Assembly: GCF_013283835.1 (NCBI RefSeq)
Contig: NZ_CP054052.1
Coordinates: 2,170,001-2,234,000, forward strand
Origin: Poseidonibacter lekithochrous
GTDB taxonomy: Bacteria > Campylobacterota > Campylobacteria > Campylobacterales > Arcobacteraceae
Length of the DNA stretch: 64,000 nucleotides
Direction of reading: 5' to 3'
A program made the position numbers and the translations under genes. The notes under the pieces were generated by a model. It saw nothing but the letters and a program-made list of their open reading frames with translations. It ran no database searches and had not been told where the DNA came from. Shown here piece after piece: positions 5,970-17,322 of this stretch; the first letter of the stretch is position 1, and each line of letters starts with the position of its first letter.

Positions 5970-6530
5970 TTACTTTTTAACCCCTTGTTTTGCAAACTTG
6001 TTTTGTATTGGGTCACTAAAAGTGTATGTTCCTTCTTTTAATTCAAAAGGATAATCCGCTAAACATTTTTTATACTCTACAACAAACTCATCATCATAAG
6101 AAGCAAATGCATTTGTAAGAATATCAATATATTTAGCAGGAATTACACAAGAAGAATCCCCTACTTTTGCAATTTTTTCTTCTTTTGTAGTCATAAAAGC
6201 AATAATATTATCATCAAGATCTTGACCTATTGCATTTGAAGAATCTATTGTAATACAAGAATAGTTTTTTTCTCTTAGTTTTAAAAGCTCTAACTCTTCA
6301 TCAGTTATTTTTACAACAACACCATTAGTAATAGCATTTTCATTTTTTTGAAGATTTAGAAAAACTCCATTAGTATCTTGTCCATCAAAGTTAATAGTTT
6401 CAATTGAATTCCAAACTTTTTCATAACCTTTTATTGATACTGGAATTAAATCACTTTGAAACAGTTCTCTCTTAAAAGACTTTTGAGCACTTACAATATT
6501 TATAAGTGAGCCATATCCAAACATATACAT
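5970..6530 (-). CDS. Gamma-glutamylcyclotransferase-like protein
   Basis: A 186-residue protein of the GGCT-like (BtrG/AIG2) fold, which releases 5-oxoproline from gamma-glutamyl peptides or amines. The signature YGSLI loop is at residues 6-10 of the start MYMFGYGSLIN, and an acidic residue in the central region (around EELELLKLREKNY) is in the expected place for the catalytic Glu. It overlaps the RraA-like gene by one base at its start and runs directly into the TPR-like gene, so it sits mid-operon. Its substrate is unknown. Proximity to ovoA raises the possibility of a link to thiol or gamma-glutamyl metabolism, which is inference only. Confidence 0.78.
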   Translation of the reverse strand: MYMFGYGSLINIVSAQKSFKRELFQSDLIPVSIKGYEKVWNSIETINFDGQDTNGVFLNLQKNENAITNGVVVKITDEELELLKLREKNYSCITIDSSNAIGQDLDDNIIAFMTTKEEKIAKVGDSSCVIPAKYIDILTNAFASYDDEFVVEYKKCLADYPFELKEGTYTFSDPIQNKFAKQGVKK

Positions 6531-7009
6531 TAAACTATCTTTTCTTTAGTAATTACAATACCATCAGGATCAGCATATACATAATCACCTTCATTGATTT
6601 GAACACCATCAACAGTAATACTTACGTTAATTTCGCCCTCTTGAACAGGAATATATTTTTTAGGACAAGTTCCTTTTGCTAATAATCCCACATCAAACTC
6701 TTTTGTTGTTTCTGTATCTCTAACATATCCGTTTACAATAATTCCTTCATATTTATTATCACTTGCAAACTTCATTAAGTTATCACCTACAACAGCAAAA
6801 TATTTAACATCCACATCAACAACAACTACTTTTCCAAGTCCTTCATTGTCTCTTAGTAATACAGCTAAATCTTTATTATTTTTATCTAGTTTTACTGTTA
6901 TTACCTCACCTTGGAATTTTTTGCTTCCACCGTAAGATTTGAAATCTGGTCCTAAAACCTCTGTTTTATCACTATATTCATCACATAAATCTGCTGTAAA
7001 AAATCCCAT
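6530..7009 (-). CDS. rraA: RraA-family protein (aldolase / RNase regulator fold)
   Basis: A 159-residue protein with the RraA/HMG-aldolase fold, about the size of E. coli RraA (161). Landmarks are the N-terminal ATSDLCD-like TADLCDEY, the GDNLMKFA loop and NGYVRDT with the paired Arg-Asp of the substrate and metal site. In gammaproteobacteria RraA inhibits RNase E, whereas relatives are 4-hydroxy-4-methyl-2-oxoglutarate or oxaloacetate (de)aldolases. Campylobacterota generally lack a classical RNase E, so an enzymatic or other role is at least as likely. It is the first gene of the minus-strand operon ending at ovoA; AAGGA precedes the ATG. Family is confident, function is not. Confidence 0.85.
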   Translation of the reverse strand: MGFFTADLCDEYSDKTEVLGPDFKSYGGSKKFQGEVITVKLDKNNKDLAVLLRDNEGLGKVVVVDVDVKYFAVVGDNLMKFASDNKYEGIIVNGYVRDTETTKEFDVGLLAKGTCPKKYIPVQEGEINVSITVDGVQINEGDYVYADPDGIVITKEKIV

Positions 7010-9807: not shown

Positions 9808-11091
9808 ATGAAAAAAAATATCGCTAAATATATTGAACAATTTGAACAAACTTTAAACTTTTCTGACCTTTCATGGTGGATTATAGATTATAAAAATGAC
9901 CCTGGATATTTTTATTGTAATAAAGTTATGGCTAATGCTTTTAATTTAGATATAAATGCCCAAAAACACTCAGTAGTTGACACTTGTCCAATTGCTGGAG
10001 ATTACATTAAAAATGTACATTTAGCTTCAACAAATAAAGCAAATTTAATCATAAAAGAGTACTTAGAACTTCTTAATCAAGAAAAAAAAGAGTACAACAA
10101 TACTTTCCCTTATTACGATAAAAATATTGATACTGTCAAATATTTTTCAAGTAAAGCCAAAGCTTTAGAATTAGATGAAGAAGGTAATGTAAGTATATTA
10201 TTTGGATTAATCGAAAATATTACTTCCAAAGAAACTCTTTCTAAAGAACTTAAAGAATATCACAATATTATTGATACAAATGTCATGACAGCAACTACGA
10301 ATACAAAAGGTATTATCCTTAATTGTAGTTCAGCATTATGTAATATTACAGGATATTCAAAAGAAGAATTAGTTGGTCAAAAATACAATATTTTAAAACA
10401 CCCAGATACTTCAGAAAAAATCTTTGAAAAAATGGAATTAGCCCTAGCAAAAGGCGAAATTTGGGAAAATGAAATTAAAAATCAGAAAAAAAATGGTGAA
10501 GAGTATTGGATAAAACTAATAGTATCTCCAATTTTTAATGAACAAGGCAAAATAAAAGCCTTTACAACTATTAATCAAGATATTACAGATAAAAAAATTA
10601 TTGAAAAACTATCAAAAAAAGATAAATTAACAAATCTTTATAATAGAGCTAAATTAGATATTTTATTAGAAAAAGAGCTACAAACTTTTGAGAGATATGA
10701 AACTAACTCCTCAATAATAATGCTTGATATTGACTATTTTAAATCAATAAATGATAATTACGGTCATCTAATTGGGGATAAAGTCTTAGTGCAAATTGCC
10801 TCTATTTTACGCTCAAATACCAGAATCACTGATTTTGTAGGAAGATGGGGCGGAGAAGAATTCCTAATCATTTGTCCAAATAGTGATATTGAAAATACAG
10901 AAAAAGTAGCTTCTAAATTAAAAGATGTATTAGAATTTTCAGATTTTGGAATGAAAAAAAATGTAACAGCAAGTTTTGGAATAAGTTCATACAAAGAAAA
11001 TGATACAGTTGACACCCTATTACAAAGAGCTGATAATGCTTTATACAATGCTAAAGAAAATGGAAGAAATACCGTAGAATTAATTCCTTAA
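9808..11091 (+). CDS. PAS-GGDEF diguanylate cyclase
   Basis: Cytoplasmic c-di-GMP synthase with two N-terminal sensory modules. Residues about 1-135 look like a first PAS-type domain, about 145-270 is a clear PAS/PAC (KGIILNCSSALCNITGYSKEELVG and the PAC-like ITDKK end), and about 275-427 is GGDEF with GGEEF. An RxxD inhibitory site (RITD) lies five residues before it. No membrane segment is seen. An in-frame TTG at 9793 would add five residues, but the ATG is preferred because the TTG lies within the predicted -10 box region. It is closely related in its catalytic domain to the partial cyclase at the left edge. Confidence 0.9.
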   Translation: MKKNIAKYIEQFEQTLNFSDLSWWIIDYKNDPGYFYCNKVMANAFNLDINAQKHSVVDTCPIAGDYIKNVHLASTNKANLIIKEYLELLNQEKKEYNNTFPYYDKNIDTVKYFSSKAKALELDEEGNVSILFGLIENITSKETLSKELKEYHNIIDTNVMTATTNTKGIILNCSSALCNITGYSKEELVGQKYNILKHPDTSEKIFEKMELALAKGEIWENEIKNQKKNGEEYWIKLIVSPIFNEQGKIKAFTTINQDITDKKIIEKLSKKDKLTNLYNRAKLDILLEKELQTFERYETNSSIIMLDIDYFKSINDNYGHLIGDKVLVQIASILRSNTRITDFVGRWGGEEFLIICPNSDIENTEKVASKLKDVLEFSDFGMKKNVTASFGISSYKENDTVDTLLQRADNALYNAKENGRNTVELIP

Positions 11092-11110
11092 AAAGAACAC
11101 CGCTTTAACA

Positions 11111-11150
11111 CTTTTCCTTTTTATAATATATAAATAAAAAAAAGGAAAAG
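11111..11150. repeat. 12-bp inverted repeat covering a ribosome binding site
   Basis: CTTTTCCTTTTT at 11111-11122 is perfectly complementary to AAAAAGGAAAAG at 11139-11150, with a 16-base loop. The right arm is the ribosome site of the 36-residue ORF at 11152. In a read-through transcript from the upstream cyclase the site would be sequestered. The loop contains TATAAT at 11122-11127, so a transcript starting locally would lack the left arm. Confidence 0.6.
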
Positions 11151-11151
11151 T

Positions 11152-11262
11152 ATGTACTTCTATATAATAATCCTAACTATCATAACAATATTTTCTATCT
11201 TTTACATATGCAATAGATCTGATGAATTTTGGCTAAATTTAAGTGAAAAAGACTTCCTATAA
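11152..11262 (+). CDS. Small single-pass membrane peptide (36 residues)
   Basis: A short ORF with convincing signals: a strong purine-rich ribosome site ending just before the ATG, a consensus -10 box about 25 bases upstream, and a coherent product. Residues 2-20 form one hydrophobic helix (starting MYFYIIILTIITIF), then a polar tail CNRSDEFWLNLSEKDFL. It stands alone between a cyclase gene and the glutamate mutase operon. No known family is recognised. Small membrane peptides of this type often modulate a membrane protein, but no partner can be named. A chance ORF is possible. Confidence 0.5.
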   Translation: MYFYIIILTIITIFSIFYICNRSDEFWLNLSEKDFL

Positions 11263-11407
11263 AAATAAAGAAATTAGGTATTAAGAGAGATTATAAAAAC
11301 TGTAATTTTTATATAATTAATATGAAACTTTGTTAAATATATGATTGTCTAATACTTTATCATAATTAGCACTTATACAAAACTAATAAAAATCTAACCA
11401 CTTTTTG

Positions 11408-11413
11408 GATAAT
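11408..11413 (+). promoter_or_regulatory. Likely -10 box of the glutamate mutase operon
   Basis: GATAAT preceded by a T-run (CTTTTTG) matches the Campylobacterota sigma70 pattern, in which a T-rich stretch replaces a -35 box. The leader to the ATG at 11468 would be about 48 bases. No cobalamin riboswitch core was seen in 11263-11467. Confidence 0.5.
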
Positions 11414-11467
11414 ATATCTGCCTTAAATAAAGAAGAAACTAATAAAAAAAGAATTTAGGTATATAAT

Positions 11468-11881
11468 ATGAAAGTAGTAACTGGCGTAGTAGGAAACGAC
11501 ATACACGTTGTAGCAAATAGACTTATCGAACTTTCACTTCAAGCAAGAGGATTCGAAGTATTTAACTTAGGTGTTAATACATACTTAGAAGAATTTGTTG
11601 ATGCAGTGATTGAAACTGATGCTGATATTTTATTAATATCATCACTAAATGGTGAAGCCGAAGGTTGGGCAAGAGAACTTAAAATTTTAAAATCAAAATA
11701 TGGAAGTCTTTTAGATGACGTTGTATTTATGATTGGTGGAAATTTAGTAGTTGGTACAGGAACAGCAGAAGATATTGTTCCAAGATTTAAAAACTATGGA
11801 TTTGACTTAGTATTCCATCAAGTTGACCTAAATACTGGTCTTGATGCATTAGAAGATTTTATGAAAGAGAGAAATAAATAG
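11468..11881 (+). CDS. glmS: Glutamate mutase sigma (S) subunit, cobalamin-binding
   Basis: The 137-residue B12-binding subunit of adenosylcobalamin-dependent glutamate mutase (methylaspartate mutase), which interconverts L-glutamate and 3-methylaspartate. The Rossmann-like fold carries the base-off motif as D11-I-H13-V-V-A16; His13 should ligate cobalt, but the usual glycine of DxHxxG is alanine here. The other cobalamin-tail contacts are present: the SSL element (ISSLNGEAEGW) and the GG element (IGGNLVVG). It is first in a tight operon with the E subunit, a MutL-type reactivase and an AMP ligase. Not to be confused with glucosamine-phosphate synthase, which shares the symbol. Confidence 0.88.
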   Translation: MKVVTGVVGNDIHVVANRLIELSLQARGFEVFNLGVNTYLEEFVDAVIETDADILLISSLNGEAEGWARELKILKSKYGSLLDDVVFMIGGNLVVGTGTAEDIVPRFKNYGFDLVFHQVDLNTGLDALEDFMKERNK

Positions 11882-13246
11882 ATGAGTTTATTGCAAGAAG
11901 AAAGAAATATCATATTAAACAATGAATATGTAGATAGATTTGATTTTGCAGAAGTTGAAGAGTTTGTAAAAAACGCTTCAAAAAACTTATTCATTTCTCA
12001 CAACTTTAAAACAAAAGATAAGATGTTAGTTCAGCCAAGAGGTGGATTCCCAACTTATGACAAAATGTTTGCACTTTACGAATTTTTTGATAAAGCAGAT
12101 GTAGATGTATTACCTTGTACTATTGATTCAAATACAAGATTAAATGACTACGAAACTGCAAAGAAGATGTTAAGACTTTCAGAAGAAAATGAAGTAGATA
12201 TGTTAAATGGATATCCACTAGTAACTCATGGATATAGAAATACTAGAAAAATGATGACTCATTTTGATAAACCTATTTCTTTAAGACATGGTACTCCTGA
12301 TGCTAGACTTTTAATTGAAACTGCAATTGCTTCTGGTATTTTTGAAATTGAAGGTGGACCAATTACTTACCTTTTACCATATTCAAAAAACTTCCCATTA
12401 GATAAAGCCTTTTTATACTGGAAATATGTTGAGAGAGTTTGTGCTGATTACTCAAAACTAAATGAACCTATTAATAGAGAATCATTTGGACCATTAACAG
12501 CAACACTTGTTCCACCTTGTATTACTATTGTAATTCAATTACTTGAGATGTTATTATCACTTGAAGAAGGTGTAAAATCATTCTCTGTTTCATTCTCACA
12601 AACAGGTTCTATGAACCAAGATATTGTAATGGGTGCAGTAATTAAAAAACTAGCAAAACATTATGCTCATGAAATTGGTGTAACTGATGCTGATATTCAC
12701 TTAGTTTATCACCAATGGATGGGTGCTTTCCCAATGGATCCAAACTTTGCAGGACAATTAATTAATATGTCAACTGTAATTGCATCTATGGTTGGAGCAA
12801 ATAAACTTATTACAAAAACAAAACAAGAAGCTTCTGGAATTCCTACAAAAGAAGCAAATGCTGAAACAGTAGCAAACACTCAATATTTATTAAGAATCTT
12901 AAATGGTTTACCAAATATAGTAGATGAAGAGGAAGAAGAGATTTTAACTTTAGAAGTAATGGCAATTATGGAAGCTGTATTTAATGATAAAGCTGACACA
13001 TTATGGAGAAAAGTATTTAACTCAATTAAAAATGGAACTATTGACGTACCATTCTCTCCTCATATTATTAATAATAATGAAATGATTACAATTAGAGATA
13101 AAAAGAAAAATATTAGAATTATCAAAAAAGGAAAAGTTCCAATTCCTGATAGATGTTTTGAATATGAAAAAGCCCAATGTGACTTAACAAAAGATACGAC
13201 TTCAATCGTAAATGATATTATCCATGATATAGGGATTATGCAATAA
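11882..13246 (+). CDS. glmE: Glutamate mutase epsilon (E) subunit
   Basis: The catalytic TIM-barrel subunit of glutamate mutase, 454 residues against about 483 in the clostridial enzyme. It binds the substrate and pairs with the S subunit, with adenosylcobalamin between them. Family features visible are RHGTPDARLLIETAIASG with the substrate-contacting arginines, FEIEGGPITYLLPYSK, and the Gly/Gln-rich FSQTGSMNQDIVMGA. It begins directly after the S-subunit stop codon. The C-terminal 60 residues (IPIPDRCFEYEKAQ-type region) are somewhat basic. A methylaspartate ammonia-lyase, the usual next enzyme, is absent from the neighbourhood. Confidence 0.9.
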   Translation: MSLLQEERNIILNNEYVDRFDFAEVEEFVKNASKNLFISHNFKTKDKMLVQPRGGFPTYDKMFALYEFFDKADVDVLPCTIDSNTRLNDYETAKKMLRLSEENEVDMLNGYPLVTHGYRNTRKMMTHFDKPISLRHGTPDARLLIETAIASGIFEIEGGPITYLLPYSKNFPLDKAFLYWKYVERVCADYSKLNEPINRESFGPLTATLVPPCITIVIQLLEMLLSLEEGVKSFSVSFSQTGSMNQDIVMGAVIKKLAKHYAHEIGVTDADIHLVYHQWMGAFPMDPNFAGQLINMSTVIASMVGANKLITKTKQEASGIPTKEANAETVANTQYLLRILNGLPNIVDEEEEEILTLEVMAIMEAVFNDKADTLWRKVFNSIKNGTIDVPFSPHIINNNEMITIRDKKKNIRIIKKGKVPIPDRCFEYEKAQCDLTKDTTSIVNDIIHDIGIMQ

Positions 13247-14448
13247 TGAGCCAAGTAAACGAAAACACAAATGACAAACTATTAATTGATGTGGGAAGTA
13301 CTTATTTTAAAATGAGTACTTCAAAAGGTGTTGAGCAACACTTTAGAGATTTCAACAAAGATATTTTTGATGATTTAACATACAAATGTGGTGATACAAT
13401 TAATGCTTATGAAAAAGAAGATGTATATATTTGTTCATCAGCAAATGGTGGATTAAGTACACTTATTATTGGAATTTCTAATTCATTTTCATTAAAATAT
13501 GCAACTAATATTGCTTTTAACTCTGGTATTAATATTATTGATACTGTTTTAAATAAAGATATTGATACAACTTCAAGACCAAGCGAATTAATCGATGTTG
13601 TTATAGTTGTTGGAGGAATTGATTCAGTTTCTAAAATCTTTGATGAAAAACTATTTAACTTTTTAAATGATATTAACTACTCAAATATTGTTTATGTAGG
13701 AAGCAAAAAAGAAGCTCCTTATTTAAGTGAAAATATTGAGAATTTAGTAGTTTTACCAAATATTATTACAAATAAACTTCATGTTGAAGAAGAAAATTTA
13801 AAAGAGTATTTAACAAACCTATACCAAGCAGATATTATGGGGAAAGAAGATATCAAACACCTATATGATATTACTTCAAACCAAATCTTCTCAACTCCAT
13901 ATATTGTAAATAAAACATTACCATATATTGGTTCTAAATTTACAGTTGCTAATCCATATATTCTTATTGATATTGGTGGAGCAACAACAGATATTCACTA
14001 CTCAAAAGATTTAGTAGATGAAAATATGGTTACAGAAAATGAATATGATAGATTAGTATTCAAAAAACTTGGGGTTTATAAATCAAAAGAGTCTTTAATT
14101 TTTGCAGCTAAAAATAATGAATTTGTATATGAATTATTAGCTCACTTAAAAGTTACAGAACATATCTTTGACGAGACAAGCGAAAAAGCAACTACTATTT
14201 TAATGCAATTAGCAATTTTCTTAGTACTTTGTAAAGTATCAACTTATAGAAAAGCATATATCAATTTAAAATTACATGCACTAAATTCAATCGTATTTAC
14301 AGGTGGAATATCTAAAGTATTAAAGCCGGAAGAAATTGAAGATATTGTATCATTTTTCTATCAAAAAATATTAAGTTCACAACATAATCCAAACATCGTA
14401 ATGGATAGTAATTACGATATCTGGACTCTTGGCGTGAAAGAAAAATAA
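13246..14448 (+). CDS. glmL: Glutamate mutase accessory ATPase (MutL/GlmL-like)
   Basis: A 400-residue actin-fold ATPase of the MutL family, thought to reactivate or reload the coenzyme B12 mutase. Phosphate loops are visible as DVGSTYFKM near the N-terminus (residue about 14) and DIGGATTDIHYS near residue 245, with an adenosine-type loop VFTGGISKVL near residue 348. It overlaps the E-subunit gene by one base (TAATG), indicating coupling. It is shorter than typical GlmL (about 460). The position between the E subunit and the ligase is consistent with a dedicated chaperone for this mutase. Confidence 0.84.
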   Translation: MSQVNENTNDKLLIDVGSTYFKMSTSKGVEQHFRDFNKDIFDDLTYKCGDTINAYEKEDVYICSSANGGLSTLIIGISNSFSLKYATNIAFNSGINIIDTVLNKDIDTTSRPSELIDVVIVVGGIDSVSKIFDEKLFNFLNDINYSNIVYVGSKKEAPYLSENIENLVVLPNIITNKLHVEEENLKEYLTNLYQADIMGKEDIKHLYDITSNQIFSTPYIVNKTLPYIGSKFTVANPYILIDIGGATTDIHYSKDLVDENMVTENEYDRLVFKKLGVYKSKESLIFAAKNNEFVYELLAHLKVTEHIFDETSEKATTILMQLAIFLVLCKVSTYRKAYINLKLHALNSIVFTGGISKVLKPEEIEDIVSFFYQKILSSQHNPNIVMDSNYDIWTLGVKEK

Positions 14449-14460
14449 AAGGAAATATAA

Positions 14461-16026
14461 ATGTCTATTAACTGTATTAGAACTTTAATTGAAGATGCTG
14501 CATTATCTCATGGAGATAAAACAGCAATAACTTTCAATTCAAAAAATATTTCATACAACGAACTATTAAAAAAAGTAAATCAAGTTGCCTTTTATTTAAA
14601 AGAATTAGATTTACCAAAAGGAACTAGAGTTGGAGTTTATTCTACAAAAGGAATAGACCAAGTTATTGCAATTCTTGCAATTTTATCTACGGATTATGTA
14701 TTAGTTCCTTTAACAAAACTATTAAAATCTGAACAAGTAGAATATATCACTAATGATTGTAATATCAAATGTATTATTACAGATAAACTTGAAAGCATTG
14801 AAAAAATTAATTTTGATGGTCATATTATCTCTTATGAAACAACACAAAAAGATATTCCATCTTTTGAAGAGATTTATAAATACTACAACAAACCATATTT
14901 TCATGATGTAAATGGTCATGATAATGCAGTAATTACTTATTCATTTGGTATTACAGGACAACCTAAAGGTATCGTAATTTCTCATAGAAATTTAATTGAT
15001 TCTGCAAGAGTTGTATCTCAGTATTTAGATTTAAATGAAGATGATGTAATCTCTGGAACGTTAATTTTCAATCTTGATTATGGTTTAAATCAAATCTTTT
15101 GTACATTATATAAAAGAGCAACATTAGCTTTACATAGATTAATTTTAGCTAATGATTTCTTCAATCATTTAATTAATGATAATGTAACAGTAGTACCATT
15201 AATGCCTATTAATATAACTTCAATGTTTGATGAAGATGAACATAGACTTCCAAGTATTGAACTATTATCAAAAGTAAGAATTCTTACATCTTCAGGTGGA
15301 AATGTAACGCAAAAGATGTTAAAAGATTTAGATAAATTCTTCCCTGATGCGAAGTTTTATTCTATGCATGGTTTAACAGAAGCATTTAGATCAACATACT
15401 TAGACCCCTCACAAATTCATATTAGACCTGATTCAATTGGAAAAGCAATTCCTGATGTTGAGTTATATGTAATTAATGAAGAAGGTAAAGAGTGTGGACT
15501 TAGAGAAGTTGGTGAATTAATCCATAGAGGTGGTTACATCTATAAAGGATTCTGGAATGCACCAATTGAAACTAGTGAGAGATTCAAATCTATTCAAATT
15601 CTTAAAAATGTAATTGACTTAGATGGGCAATTAGCAGATGAAACTGTAATTGCTACAGGAGATTATGTATATAAAGATGAAGAAGGTTATTTCTACTTTG
15701 TATCTAGACATGATGACATGATTAAAACAAGAGGATTTAGAGTAAGTCCTTATGAAATTGAATCAGTTGTAGCTAAAAATATCAAAGAGATTGACCAATG
15801 TGCTGTATTCTCAGTAGAGAATCCAGATATTGAAGAAGAGATTGTTTTAGTATATAGTGCACAAAATGAATTAGCTCCAAAAGAGATTAATTTTGAGCTT
15901 AAAAAACATCTTGCATCATATATGATACCAACTCAAATAATCTATAAAAGGTCACTTCCACTAGTACCTTCTGACAAAAATAAAGTAAATAAAGAAGAAT
16001 TAAAAAAAGAACTTCTTACTAAATAA
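14461..16026 (+). CDS. AMP-forming acyl/amino-acid ligase linked to glutamate mutase
   Basis: A 521-residue adenylate-forming enzyme (ANL superfamily). The phosphate loop at 161-170 is SFGITGQPKG instead of the usual SG-S/T-TG pattern, and the downstream motifs are intact: HGLTEAFRST, TGDYVYKDEEG, a hinge near RGFRVSP, and a C-terminal lysine in SDKNKVNKEE. Overall wording (ISHRNLI, DYGLNQ, LTEAFRSTYL, RPDSIGKAIP) resembles the acyl-CoA ligases of exosortase-A/PEP-CTERM loci. It starts 12 bases after the reactivase gene, so it likely activates the mutase product or a derivative. The acceptor (CoA, carrier protein or amine) cannot be told from sequence. Confidence 0.8.
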   Translation: MSINCIRTLIEDAALSHGDKTAITFNSKNISYNELLKKVNQVAFYLKELDLPKGTRVGVYSTKGIDQVIAILAILSTDYVLVPLTKLLKSEQVEYITNDCNIKCIITDKLESIEKINFDGHIISYETTQKDIPSFEEIYKYYNKPYFHDVNGHDNAVITYSFGITGQPKGIVISHRNLIDSARVVSQYLDLNEDDVISGTLIFNLDYGLNQIFCTLYKRATLALHRLILANDFFNHLINDNVTVVPLMPINITSMFDEDEHRLPSIELLSKVRILTSSGGNVTQKMLKDLDKFFPDAKFYSMHGLTEAFRSTYLDPSQIHIRPDSIGKAIPDVELYVINEEGKECGLREVGELIHRGGYIYKGFWNAPIETSERFKSIQILKNVIDLDGQLADETVIATGDYVYKDEEGYFYFVSRHDDMIKTRGFRVSPYEIESVVAKNIKEIDQCAVFSVENPDIEEEIVLVYSAQNELAPKEINFELKKHLASYMIPTQIIYKRSLPLVPSDKNKVNKEELKKELLTK

Positions 16027-16030
16027 ATTA

Positions 16031-16056
16031 AAATATAGCATTTTTGCTATATTTTT
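16031..16056 (+). terminator. Intrinsic terminator of the mutase operon
   Basis: A 10-bp stem AAATATAGCA / TGCTATATTT with a TTTT loop, followed by T-rich sequence, directly after the ligase gene. Confidence 0.8.
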
Positions 16057-16103
16057 CTACTTTTCTACTATTTTTCCACTTTTATTGACTAGAATCAAGT
16101 ACT

Positions 16104-16109
16104 TATAAT
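16104..16109 (+). promoter_or_regulatory. -10 box of the cytochrome c gene
   Basis: Consensus TATAAT about 53 bases before the cytochrome start, with TTGACT at 16085-16090 at a short 13-base spacing, so the -35 assignment is doubtful. Confidence 0.5.
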
Positions 16110-16161
16110 AAGAAATTCATTAAAATGTATCTTATTAAAAAACAATGTAGAAGGATTTAAT

Positions 16162-16443
16162 ATGAAAAAACTAGTAATCGCAGCATCTTTATTAACTGCA
16201 GCATGTGTAGCATTCGCTAACCCATACGCTAAGTGTGCAGGTTGTCACGGAGCAAATGGTGAGAAAGTAGCATTAGGAAAATCTAAAGTAATTAAAGATA
16301 TGTCTAAAGCTGATTTCATTGGTGCATTAAAAGGTTATAAAGATGGTTCTTACGGTGGACCAATGAAAGGTTTAATGAAAGGTCAAGTAGCTTCATTATC
16401 TGACGCTGACATCGAAGCAATCGCTAACCAAATCGTTAAGTAA
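16162..16443 (+). CDS. Small class I c-type cytochrome (c553-like)
   Basis: A 93-residue periplasmic electron carrier. A cleavable signal peptide (about 19 residues, ending AFA) is followed closely by the haem c site C25-A-G-C28-H29 and a likely distal Met ligand in GGPMKGLMKG (Met68 or Met72). The compact size and K-rich surface match cytochrome c553, which feeds cytochrome oxidases or other reductases in Campylobacterota. It has its own promoter region and terminator. The ribosome site is AGAAGGA, and codon use is noticeably richer in preferred codons than its neighbours, suggesting high expression. Confidence 0.93.
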   Translation: MKKLVIAASLLTAACVAFANPYAKCAGCHGANGEKVALGKSKVIKDMSKADFIGALKGYKDGSYGGPMKGLMKGQVASLSDADIEAIANQIVK

Positions 16444-16455
16444 TTGTTCTTATGG

Positions 16456-16477
16456 TAACTAGGCTTCGGTCTAGTTA
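16456..16477. terminator. UUCG-tetraloop terminator, shared by convergent genes
   Basis: Stem TAACTAGGC / GTCTAGTTA closed by a TTCG loop (one G-T wobble) between the cytochrome gene and the convergent GGDEF gene; its right arm contains the stop codon of the latter. Confidence 0.7.
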
Positions 16478-17322
16478 TTATATAGAATCTCTATTCTATC
16501 TCGGCCATTAGCTTTGGCTTTATAAACACCCTCATCCGCTTTTTGAAGTAACTTATCTTTATCATTATAATTTTTATAAAAAGAAACACCCATACTAACA
16601 CTAATTGAAATATCTTTGTTTGAATGATGTACTCTTTGAGATTTAATATCTTTTTGTAAATCATTTAATTTTGATTCAAGCATCAAAGATGGTAGAAAAC
16701 ATAAAATCACAAACTCTTCTCCACCATAACGATACACTTCACCATTTAAATAATAAGCATGTGTTCGAAGTTTTTCACCTAAATATTGTAATACTCTATC
16801 TCCAGCATCATGTCCATAGTTATCATTGATACCTTTAAATCTATCAGCATCAATAAAAACAGCACATAGTAAAGAAGCATTGTTTTGTTTTACATACTTT
16901 TCTAAATCTTCTTCCATCTTTTTTCGATTATAAACACCTGTTAAATAATCTCTAGTCATTCTATCTTCTAGTAGTTGTTTCTCTTTTAGTAGTTGTTCAA
17001 TTAGATTATCTTTATAATCCTCACCCATAGTTGTATTCTTCTGTTCTAAGACTTTGCCAAGGCTAAACTCGAATCTATCAAAAGAGCTTGAATAAGCTAC
17101 TTTATTACACTCTATGACTAACTGTGGTTTATCATCTCCCAAACCATTTGTAATTCTTAATTGCTCAAACTGTTTAATACCATAAGAGAGTTTATCATCA
17201 ATTATTTTAGGTTCTAGTAGTTCTTTTTTCCAGTAACGATTATTTTCCTTTGTAAGGATTAGTGTTTTTTTTAATAATATATCTTCAAATAACTCTTTAT
17301 TTACGGAAATTTTGTACATCAC
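16471..17322 (-). CDS. Soluble GGDEF diguanylate cyclase
   Basis: A 283-residue cytoplasmic protein with an unrecognised N-terminal domain (about 1-110), a coiled-coil linker (LIEQLLKEKQLLEDRM) and a C-terminal GGDEF domain starting at TRDYLTGVYNRKKM. The catalytic loop is RYGGEEF and the metal Asp lies in VFIDADRFKGIND, so activity is expected. Unlike two other cyclases here, the position five residues before GGEEF reads LNGE-like rather than RxxD, so classical product inhibition is probably absent. It is monocistronic and convergent with the cytochrome gene. Confidence 0.88.
   Translation of the reverse strand: MMYKISVNKELFEDILLKKTLILTKENNRYWKKELLEPKIIDDKLSYGIKQFEQLRITNGLGDDKPQLVIECNKVAYSSSFDRFEFSLGKVLEQKNTTMGEDYKDNLIEQLLKEKQLLEDRMTRDYLTGVYNRKKMEEDLEKYVKQNNASLLCAVFIDADRFKGINDNYGHDAGDRVLQYLGEKLRTHAYYLNGEVYRYGGEEFVILCFLPSLMLESKLNDLQKDIKSQRVHHSNKDISISVSMGVSFYKNYNDKDKLLQKADEGVYKAKANGRDRIEILYNN

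Follow-up and report, generated by a model that had tools for sequence, protein, structure and literature searches.

What becomes of 3-methylaspartate in a bacterium that encodes a glutamate mutase and in whose genome no methylaspartate ammonia-lyase is detected? This question is raised by a four-gene cassette of Poseidonibacter lekithochrous (Campylobacterota; Arcobacteraceae), located at positions 11468-16026 of a stretch of 64,000 nucleotides (positions 2,170,001 to 2,234,000 of contig NZ_CP054052.1, assembly GCF_013283835.1; hereafter the window, from whose first letter coordinates are counted). The host genome is complete, a single contig of 3.57 Mb, and contained no match to the ammonia-lyase family PF07476 (a search that did not include the N-terminal lyase family). 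An earlier reading of the window, made from its letters alone (the sequence-only reading), had remarked on the missing lyase at the operon, an absence that this search extends to the rest of the genome, and had proposed that the cell activates a methylaspartyl group for a conjugate, a surface glycan or a secondary metabolite. Comparing the cassette across public genomes, we observed that gene content, gene order and catalytic residues are conserved and that the module is co-inherited with a gene of the RraA family. Our answer, which we favour tentatively and at a level well short of probable, is that the cell produces 3-methylaspartate and consumes it independently of the lyase, perhaps via 3-methyloxaloacetate to 2-oxobutanoate.

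A recurrent cassette and its partner genes

The cassette encodes the B12-binding S subunit (137 amino acids, aa; 11468..11881) and the E subunit (454 aa; 11882..13246) of glutamate mutase, a MutL/GlmL-like protein (400 aa; 13246..14448) and an AMP-ligase-like protein of the ANL family (521 aa; 14461..16026). As the sequence-only reading had described, the four genes are tightly packed: they lie contiguously on the plus strand, with no gap between S and E, an overlap of one base between E and MutL, and 12 bases between MutL and the ligase gene. The S protein passed the NCBIfam methylaspartate mutase S model NF002612 (155 bits, cut-off 110), failed a further NCBIfam model, TIGR01501 (96 bits, cut-off 136), and could be aligned to the Clostridium S chain. 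The E protein is full length and matched Pfam family PF06368 (388 bits, cut-off 27) as well as the solved structures 6h9e (272 bits) and 1cb7 (268 bits) of the PDB, and it scored slightly below the cut-off of its NCBIfam model (370 bits, cut-off 390). In the Clostridium E chain, we take the eight catalytic residues to be Arg66, Arg100, Arg149, Glu171, Tyr177, Tyr181, Lys326 and Glu330 (numbers that agree with E-chain numbering wherever counted). Their counterparts are unchanged in all 81 E proteins compared (79 distinct sequences), and the D-x-H part of the B12 motif is unchanged in all 76 S proteins that were aligned. Because of these unchanged residues, S and E look like a functional glutamate mutase. 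The glycine that closes the full DxHxxG motif is an alanine in all 76 aligned cassette S subunits. The product of the third gene passed the Pfam MutL model PF13941 (91 bits, cut-off 27) and scored far below the cut-off of the GlmL model (67 bits, cut-off 475); this distant MutL relative is probably the reactivase of the mutase.

Within Campylobacterota, PF06368 matched 58 of 397 genomes, in 20 of 68 genera. For the comparison of gene order, we combined the window with 80 close loci from a scan of public genomes (the best 80 of 217), giving 81 loci that are not fully independent, as L065 and L066 stem from one bin and the window and Arcobacter sp. UBA7394 (L050) have identical E proteins. The 80 loci belong to Arcobacteraceae, Sulfurimonas and its relatives, Colwelliaceae, Oceanospirillaceae, Halieaceae and other Gammaproteobacteria (the gammaproteobacterial hosts being mostly marine), besides three beta-proteobacterial bins and one Rhodothermales bin. 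All 81 loci contain S (76 found by clustering of open reading frames, five by tblastn). MutL occurs in each of the 76 loci with 1.5 kb or more of downstream sequence (reading in two pieces in L050). Of the 73 loci that extend at least 3 kb downstream, 72 have the ligase, and in the remaining one (L048) the gene is truncated. The synteny search that the sequence-only reading had proposed thus finds the S-E-MutL-ligase string recurring across these loci. Outside Campylobacterota, E proteins are 81-89% identical to that of the window, which is high for such distances and therefore suggests horizontal spread; the cassette has probably travelled in this way. In the E tree, where L062 was assigned to Campylobacterota by ourselves, the phylum falls into two groups, one of them inside Proteobacteria, at a weakly supported fork that is also compatible with a single origin.

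While the sequence-only reading had treated the operon as a self-contained unit, the comparison reveals two further partners: a gene of the RraA family and an aminotransferase gene, the latter in many Gammaproteobacteria. Of the 73 loci with room for it, 53 have the RraA-family gene at most 1.5 kb from E and on the other strand, and 61 have it anywhere in the upstream stretch examined. Its counterpart in the window (159 aa; 6530..7009, minus strand) lies ~4.5 kb upstream of S. At the level of whole genomes, a strong RraA match (E-value at most 1e-37, a limit set after a gap between 3e-38 and 2e-13 had been seen) occurred in 58 of 58 mutase-positive versus 3 of 339 mutase-negative Campylobacterota genomes (Fisher p about 1e-66, uncorrected for phylogeny) and, inside the single genus g2, in 5 of 5 positive versus 1 of 12 negative genomes (p 0.001, likewise uncorrected). 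The Arg-Asp metal/catalytic motif is unchanged in 60 of 60 aligned RraA proteins (out of 67 clustered, seven lying outside the length limits). In a tree, the window's protein falls within the main cassette-linked RraA clade (98/84), which is accompanied by a sister group; a few cassette-linked sequences branch outside both. Together, these sequences are split (100/100) from the Colwellia family's housekeeping RraA proteins, of which seven were included.

The window's own genome carries further RraA genes: four close paralogues (51-53% identity; L151-L154, near 219006, 2511400, 1463922 and 2065608) and a distant fifth near 925541, the contexts of all five showing no common partner by eye. In Colwellia maritima (L055), the cassette RraA gene between 8797 and 9531 reads in two pieces in different frames, owing either to a mutation or to a sequencing error.

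The second partner, an aspartate-aminotransferase-type gene, stands near RraA in 28 of the 64 loci with room. NCBIfam names this travelling enzyme 'aromatic amino acid transaminase', and its nearest solved structures are aspartate aminotransferases. In the Colwellia maritima family, six of 98 genomes matched the E model, five of the cassette type and one divergent (G489). Exactly those five carry both partner genes, namely RraA of the cassette type (80-85% identical to the query; in two pieces in G398) and the aminotransferase of the travelling type (84-100%, with 100% being the query itself). Other genes lie between the two in G451 and G494, and each of the five genomes has a second aminotransferase elsewhere, 68-73% identical. 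The two arginines that we presume to bind the dicarboxylate are both kept in 31 of 31 travelling and 25 of 25 housekeeping aminotransferases. As for the divergent E-like protein of G489 (L227; 32% identity), its gene follows a permease-like gene, no S, MutL or ligase gene was recognised in the 4.1 kb examined, and it probably belongs to a different system.

The ligase-like protein

The sequence-only reading had likened the terminal gene product to the ligases of exosortase-A loci. The exosortase-A ligase model TIGR03098 is indeed its best NCBIfam match, yet the score of 425 bits stays below the cut-off of 592, as it does for all 21 cassette-range ligases scored (21 genomes with one match each, 420-448 bits); the resemblance thus stands, whereas membership in the family does not. 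When the whole protein was searched against the PDB, the best structures were adenylation domains of non-ribosomal peptide synthetases (NRPS). VinN, which activates (2S,3S)-3-methylaspartate (PMC11253843, excerpt), was the 15th-ranked sequence, and SlgN1 (4gr5), another 3-methylaspartate enzyme, ranked below it. With the pocket stretch alone, a query picked after the full-length search, the two top sequences were VinN (E-value 7e-8 versus 5e-4 for the next protein). The pocket residues D206, Y207, S278 and R310, unchanged in 74 of 74 cassette ligases, match Asp230, Phe231, Ser299 and Arg331 of VinN, with a tyrosine standing for the phenylalanine and the aromatic character kept. Common to both proteins, too, is a short beta13-beta14 loop (one residue short). 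VinN Lys330 is unmatched, its place being taken by a phenylalanine.

A canonical A3 ATP loop and the A10 lysine are hallmarks of the ANL superfamily. Both were found in 7 of 7 usable comparison ANL proteins (an eighth, L186, was left out because of its wrong reading frame), whereas the loop of the cassette ligases departs from the canonical form and reads Y-S-F-G-[LIMV]-[TS]-G in 74 of 74, with phenylalanine at phosphate-loop position 162 and a hydrophobic residue at 164. The loop lysine is kept in 68 of the 74 and the A10 lysine in 64, including the window's copy, the latter being replaced in the other ten; Glu307, Gly400-Asp401, Arg416 and Asp418 are unchanged throughout. Judged by sequence, the substrate half of the protein is conserved and the triphosphate half altered, and ordinary adenylation is therefore doubtful, though possible. 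A structure predicted from an alignment of 22 of the 74 ligases (mean predicted local distance difference test score, pLDDT, of 60, with much of the middle below 50) was too poor to judge and was not used. The next-best ligase-like match in the window's genome is 28% identical. A plasmid search returned 45 records, all below 60% identity; no cassette ligase was among these plasmid records, and exosortase-annotated rhizobial ligases were among the matches listed.

Three true exosortase-A ligases (726-757 bits against TIGR03098; L162 1456-3114, L163 1483-4319 and L164 230-1843) all share the Asp, the Tyr, the Arg and the short loop, and two of them also have the Ser, which is replaced by Thr in L163. 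While TIGR03098 is the nearest curated family and its true members have much of the same pocket, they differ from the cassette ligases by a canonical ATP loop and the A10 Gly-Lys. In L163, the ligase gene is followed by a pyridoxal phosphate-dependent decarboxylase (TIGR03099), a pair that resembles VinN and its decarboxylase partner and therefore hints, by analogy, that exosortase-A loci might use aspartate or 3-methylaspartate to produce a group of the beta-alanyl or 3-aminoisobutyryl type. This suggests that exosortase-A ligases may bind one of these two amino acids.

Routes for 3-methylaspartate

With an RraA-type gene and an aminotransferase as partners of the mutase, a keto-acid route is indicated. 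The module would consist of five genes, the RraA-type gene being usually divergent from S-E-MutL-ligase, with a six-gene form in many Gammaproteobacteria that adds the aspartate-aminotransferase-type gene, and would have spread horizontally. In it, the B12-dependent mutase, kept active by the MutL-like protein, would convert L-glutamate to (2S,3S)-3-methylaspartate, which would then be transaminated to 3-methyloxaloacetate, either by the travelling enzyme (Gammaproteobacteria) or by another aminotransferase (Campylobacterota). The RraA-family protein would function as a class II pyruvate aldolase-type oxaloacetate decarboxylase and convert this intermediate to 2-oxobutanoate and CO2. Glutamate would thereby serve as a catalytic carrier in a net conversion of 2-oxoglutarate to 2-oxobutanoate plus CO2, and the product could feed isoleucine or propionyl units. 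The ligase-like protein may bind 3-methylaspartate in its VinN-like pocket and adenylate it, pass it on or merely hold it. The substrates of the aminotransferase, the RraA-type protein and the ligase, the direction of flux and the end product are what we infer here from the genes. Precedents exist for two parts of this scheme. HMG/CHA aldolase, a member of the family to which the cassette RraA belongs by sequence and by its Arg-Asp motif, has oxaloacetate decarboxylase activity, and the metal/catalytic motif occurs in most homologues (PMC5065237, excerpt); the cassette protein, for which aldolase or decarboxylase activity is predicted, differs by its tie to glutamate mutase. Besides, a 'glutamate mutase pathway' is named, without an account of its individual reactions, among the routes to 2-ketobutyrate, with reference to Abramsky et al. 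1962 (PMC7476758, excerpt). This route to isoleucine has the same starting enzyme and could be completed by an aminotransferase and an oxaloacetate-decarboxylase-type enzyme; the cassette differs in being known from its genes alone and in carrying a ligase that such a route does not need.

Several observations weigh against the keto-acid route. It offers no task for the ligase, which is the most constant partner apart from S, E and MutL. By curated models, the RraA gene lies nearest to the 'ribonuclease E activity regulator RraA' (NF006875, 147 bits, over the cut-off) and resembles characterised aldolases weakly; it is not near E in 20 of the 73 loci with room, the window included, and the four close paralogues of the same genome share the sister group with cassette-adjacent proteins (G203, G299), so that the subtypes are not cleanly split. 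Linkage of the aminotransferase is limited to the 28 of 64 loci given above, the columns that separate travelling from housekeeping enzymes show no sign of a substrate switch, and among 68 Campylobacterota genomes no such aminotransferase was found in mutase-bearing ones, two mutase-negative ones giving weak partial matches. Lastly, no gap in isoleucine supply is visible: threonine dehydratase scored over the cut-off in 68 of 68 genomes (40 of the 58 mutase-positive and 28 of the 339 mutase-negative Campylobacterota). On this count we rejected the cassette as a necessary replacement of threonine dehydratase (citramalate synthase was not searched); an extra route to isoleucine is possible. A more specific version of the keto-acid route, namely a B12-dependent loop from 2-oxoglutarate to 2-oxobutanoate and CO2, spread horizontally in marine bacteria around an ANL protein that has abandoned adenylation and serves 3-methylaspartate in some other manner, strikes us as quite unlikely when taken as a whole.

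Another reading takes the RraA protein and the aminotransferase for passenger neighbours or regulators that do not act on methylaspartate. The score against the RNase E regulator model, the loss of linkage in several Arcobacteraceae loci and the occurrence of the RraA type in three mutase-negative genomes would fit such a role. Yet the strong RraA match accompanies the mutase in every positive genome even where the genes are unlinked, the cassette type is set apart from the seven housekeeping proteins, and both genes were co-inherited in exactly the same five of 98 genomes, all of which makes mere passengers improbable. Still less credence, to the point of near dismissal, goes to the classical methylaspartate pathway or cycle, with a lyase gene lying elsewhere in the genome. 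Short, partial PF07476 matches did exceed the Pfam cut-off in 37 of the 397 Campylobacterota genomes, at least nine of them mutase-positive; however, among the matches listed all were partial and reached at most 49 bits, and 11 of 14 control genomes matched as well, which fits other enolase-superfamily proteins. For the window's own genome, which lacks a PF07476 match, the classical lyase pathway was rejected.

The remaining readings put the ligase at the centre. It is possible, if on balance rather unlikely, that this protein activates 3-methylaspartate or a product thereof (as an AMP ester, a thioester or an amide) and so supplies a conjugate, a lipid, a glycan or a small secondary metabolite, with RraA and the aminotransferase as accessories. 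Such a role would account for the invariant VinN-like pocket, for the top rank of VinN when the pocket stretch is searched alone, for the near-constant presence of the ligase and for the A10 lysine of the window's copy, and it has a parallel in the pocket that true exosortase-A ligases largely share, one of them next to a TIGR03099 gene. Against it stand the altered ATP loop in every cassette ligase, the loss of the A10 lysine in ten, the phenylalanine in place of VinN Lys330 and the ranking of VinN, in the full-length search, behind NRPS domains of other specificity. Moreover, neither a carrier protein nor a decarboxylase of the VinO type was seen among the conserved neighbours, which were named by eye. 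In the window's genome, the two PF02784 proteins were judged LysA- and SpeA-like by open-frame size, and the three carrier proteins lie elsewhere, two of them in a polyene-like cluster; a vicenistatin-like pathway with carrier and decarboxylase was set aside on these grounds. A conjugate would explain the ligase, but neither RraA nor the aminotransferase, and nothing found links the cassette to a conjugate or a surface glycan. The activated methylaspartyl group of the sequence-only reading therefore keeps the pocket and the absence of a known lyase on its side and has against it the ATP loop and the fact that no carrier or decarboxylase was seen nearby. The statement of that reading that neither a lyase nor a peptide synthetase is linked to the operon agrees with the genes around it (no genome-wide search for NRPS condensation domains was made).

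Alternatively, the ANL protein may have been repurposed as a non-adenylating binder of 3-methylaspartate, acting as a trap for the mutase product, a channel or a sensor. In that case, the halves that bind the substrate and the nucleoside would have been retained, and the handling of the triphosphate would have been lost. The invariant pocket along with Glu307, Gly400-Asp401, Arg416 and Asp418, the uniform change at positions 162 and 164, the variable A10 lysine and the canonical loop and lysine of all usable comparison proteins are in line with this. However, most cassette ligases, the window's included, retain the A10 lysine, and most retain the loop lysine; substitutions in the loop may slow adenylation instead of abolishing it, and the predicted model is no help in deciding. 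We consider this reading unlikely and, given the points raised for each, continue to favour, tentatively, the keto-acid route to 2-oxobutanoate.

Known systems and flanking features

In clostridial glutamate fermentation, operons comprise GlmS, GlmE, MutL, Mal and mesaconase (PMC4682846, excerpt). The cassette has the same S and E with their catalytic residues and a MutL-type gene in the operon; it differs by the absence of a lyase match from the genome, by the distant nature of its MutL-like protein, by the terminal ANL gene and by the divergent RraA-type gene. Vicenistatin-type modules for beta-amino acid starters combine glutamate mutase with a VinN-type ligase, a carrier protein and a decarboxylase (PMC10662134, excerpt). 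Glutamate mutase and the VinN-like pocket (Asp, aromatic, Ser, Arg, short loop) are shared with these modules, whereas no carrier protein, decarboxylase or polyketide synthase is visible in the cassette neighbourhood, the ATP loop is altered, Lys330 is replaced by phenylalanine, and MutL, the RraA type and the aminotransferase are added. A literature search, with subscription papers outside its scope, found no description of the cassette; its component families are known, and their combination appears new. The cassette thus places glutamate mutase in a fixed, lyase-free module across several bacterial groups, beyond fermentation, the haloarchaeal cycle and antibiotic clusters, and provides a concrete list of genes, be it for an old route that lacks a gene set in the literature searched or for a new use of 3-methylaspartate.

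With respect to flanking signals, the sequence-only reading had given the operon its own promoter and a closing terminator. The upstream intergenic region of 376 bp (11092..11467, plus strand), the presumed promoter site, holds 34 promoter-like sites versus a mean of 36.9 in shuffled sequences, which is no signal above chance and leaves the promoter claim without backing. The terminator fared better: a terminator-like hairpin 3' of the ligase gene (16030..16055, plus strand) has an 11-bp stem, -10.7 kcal/mol and a z-score of -5.05, and is absent from the output of a terminator pattern scan that requires three G-C pairs. Rfam gave no match at gathering score within 11000-16500. Elsewhere in the genome, at 262000-281000 (L155), lies the polyene-like cluster mentioned above; besides its two carrier proteins, we recognised in it, by eye, ketosynthases and a gene of the aromatic amino acid ammonia-lyase type.

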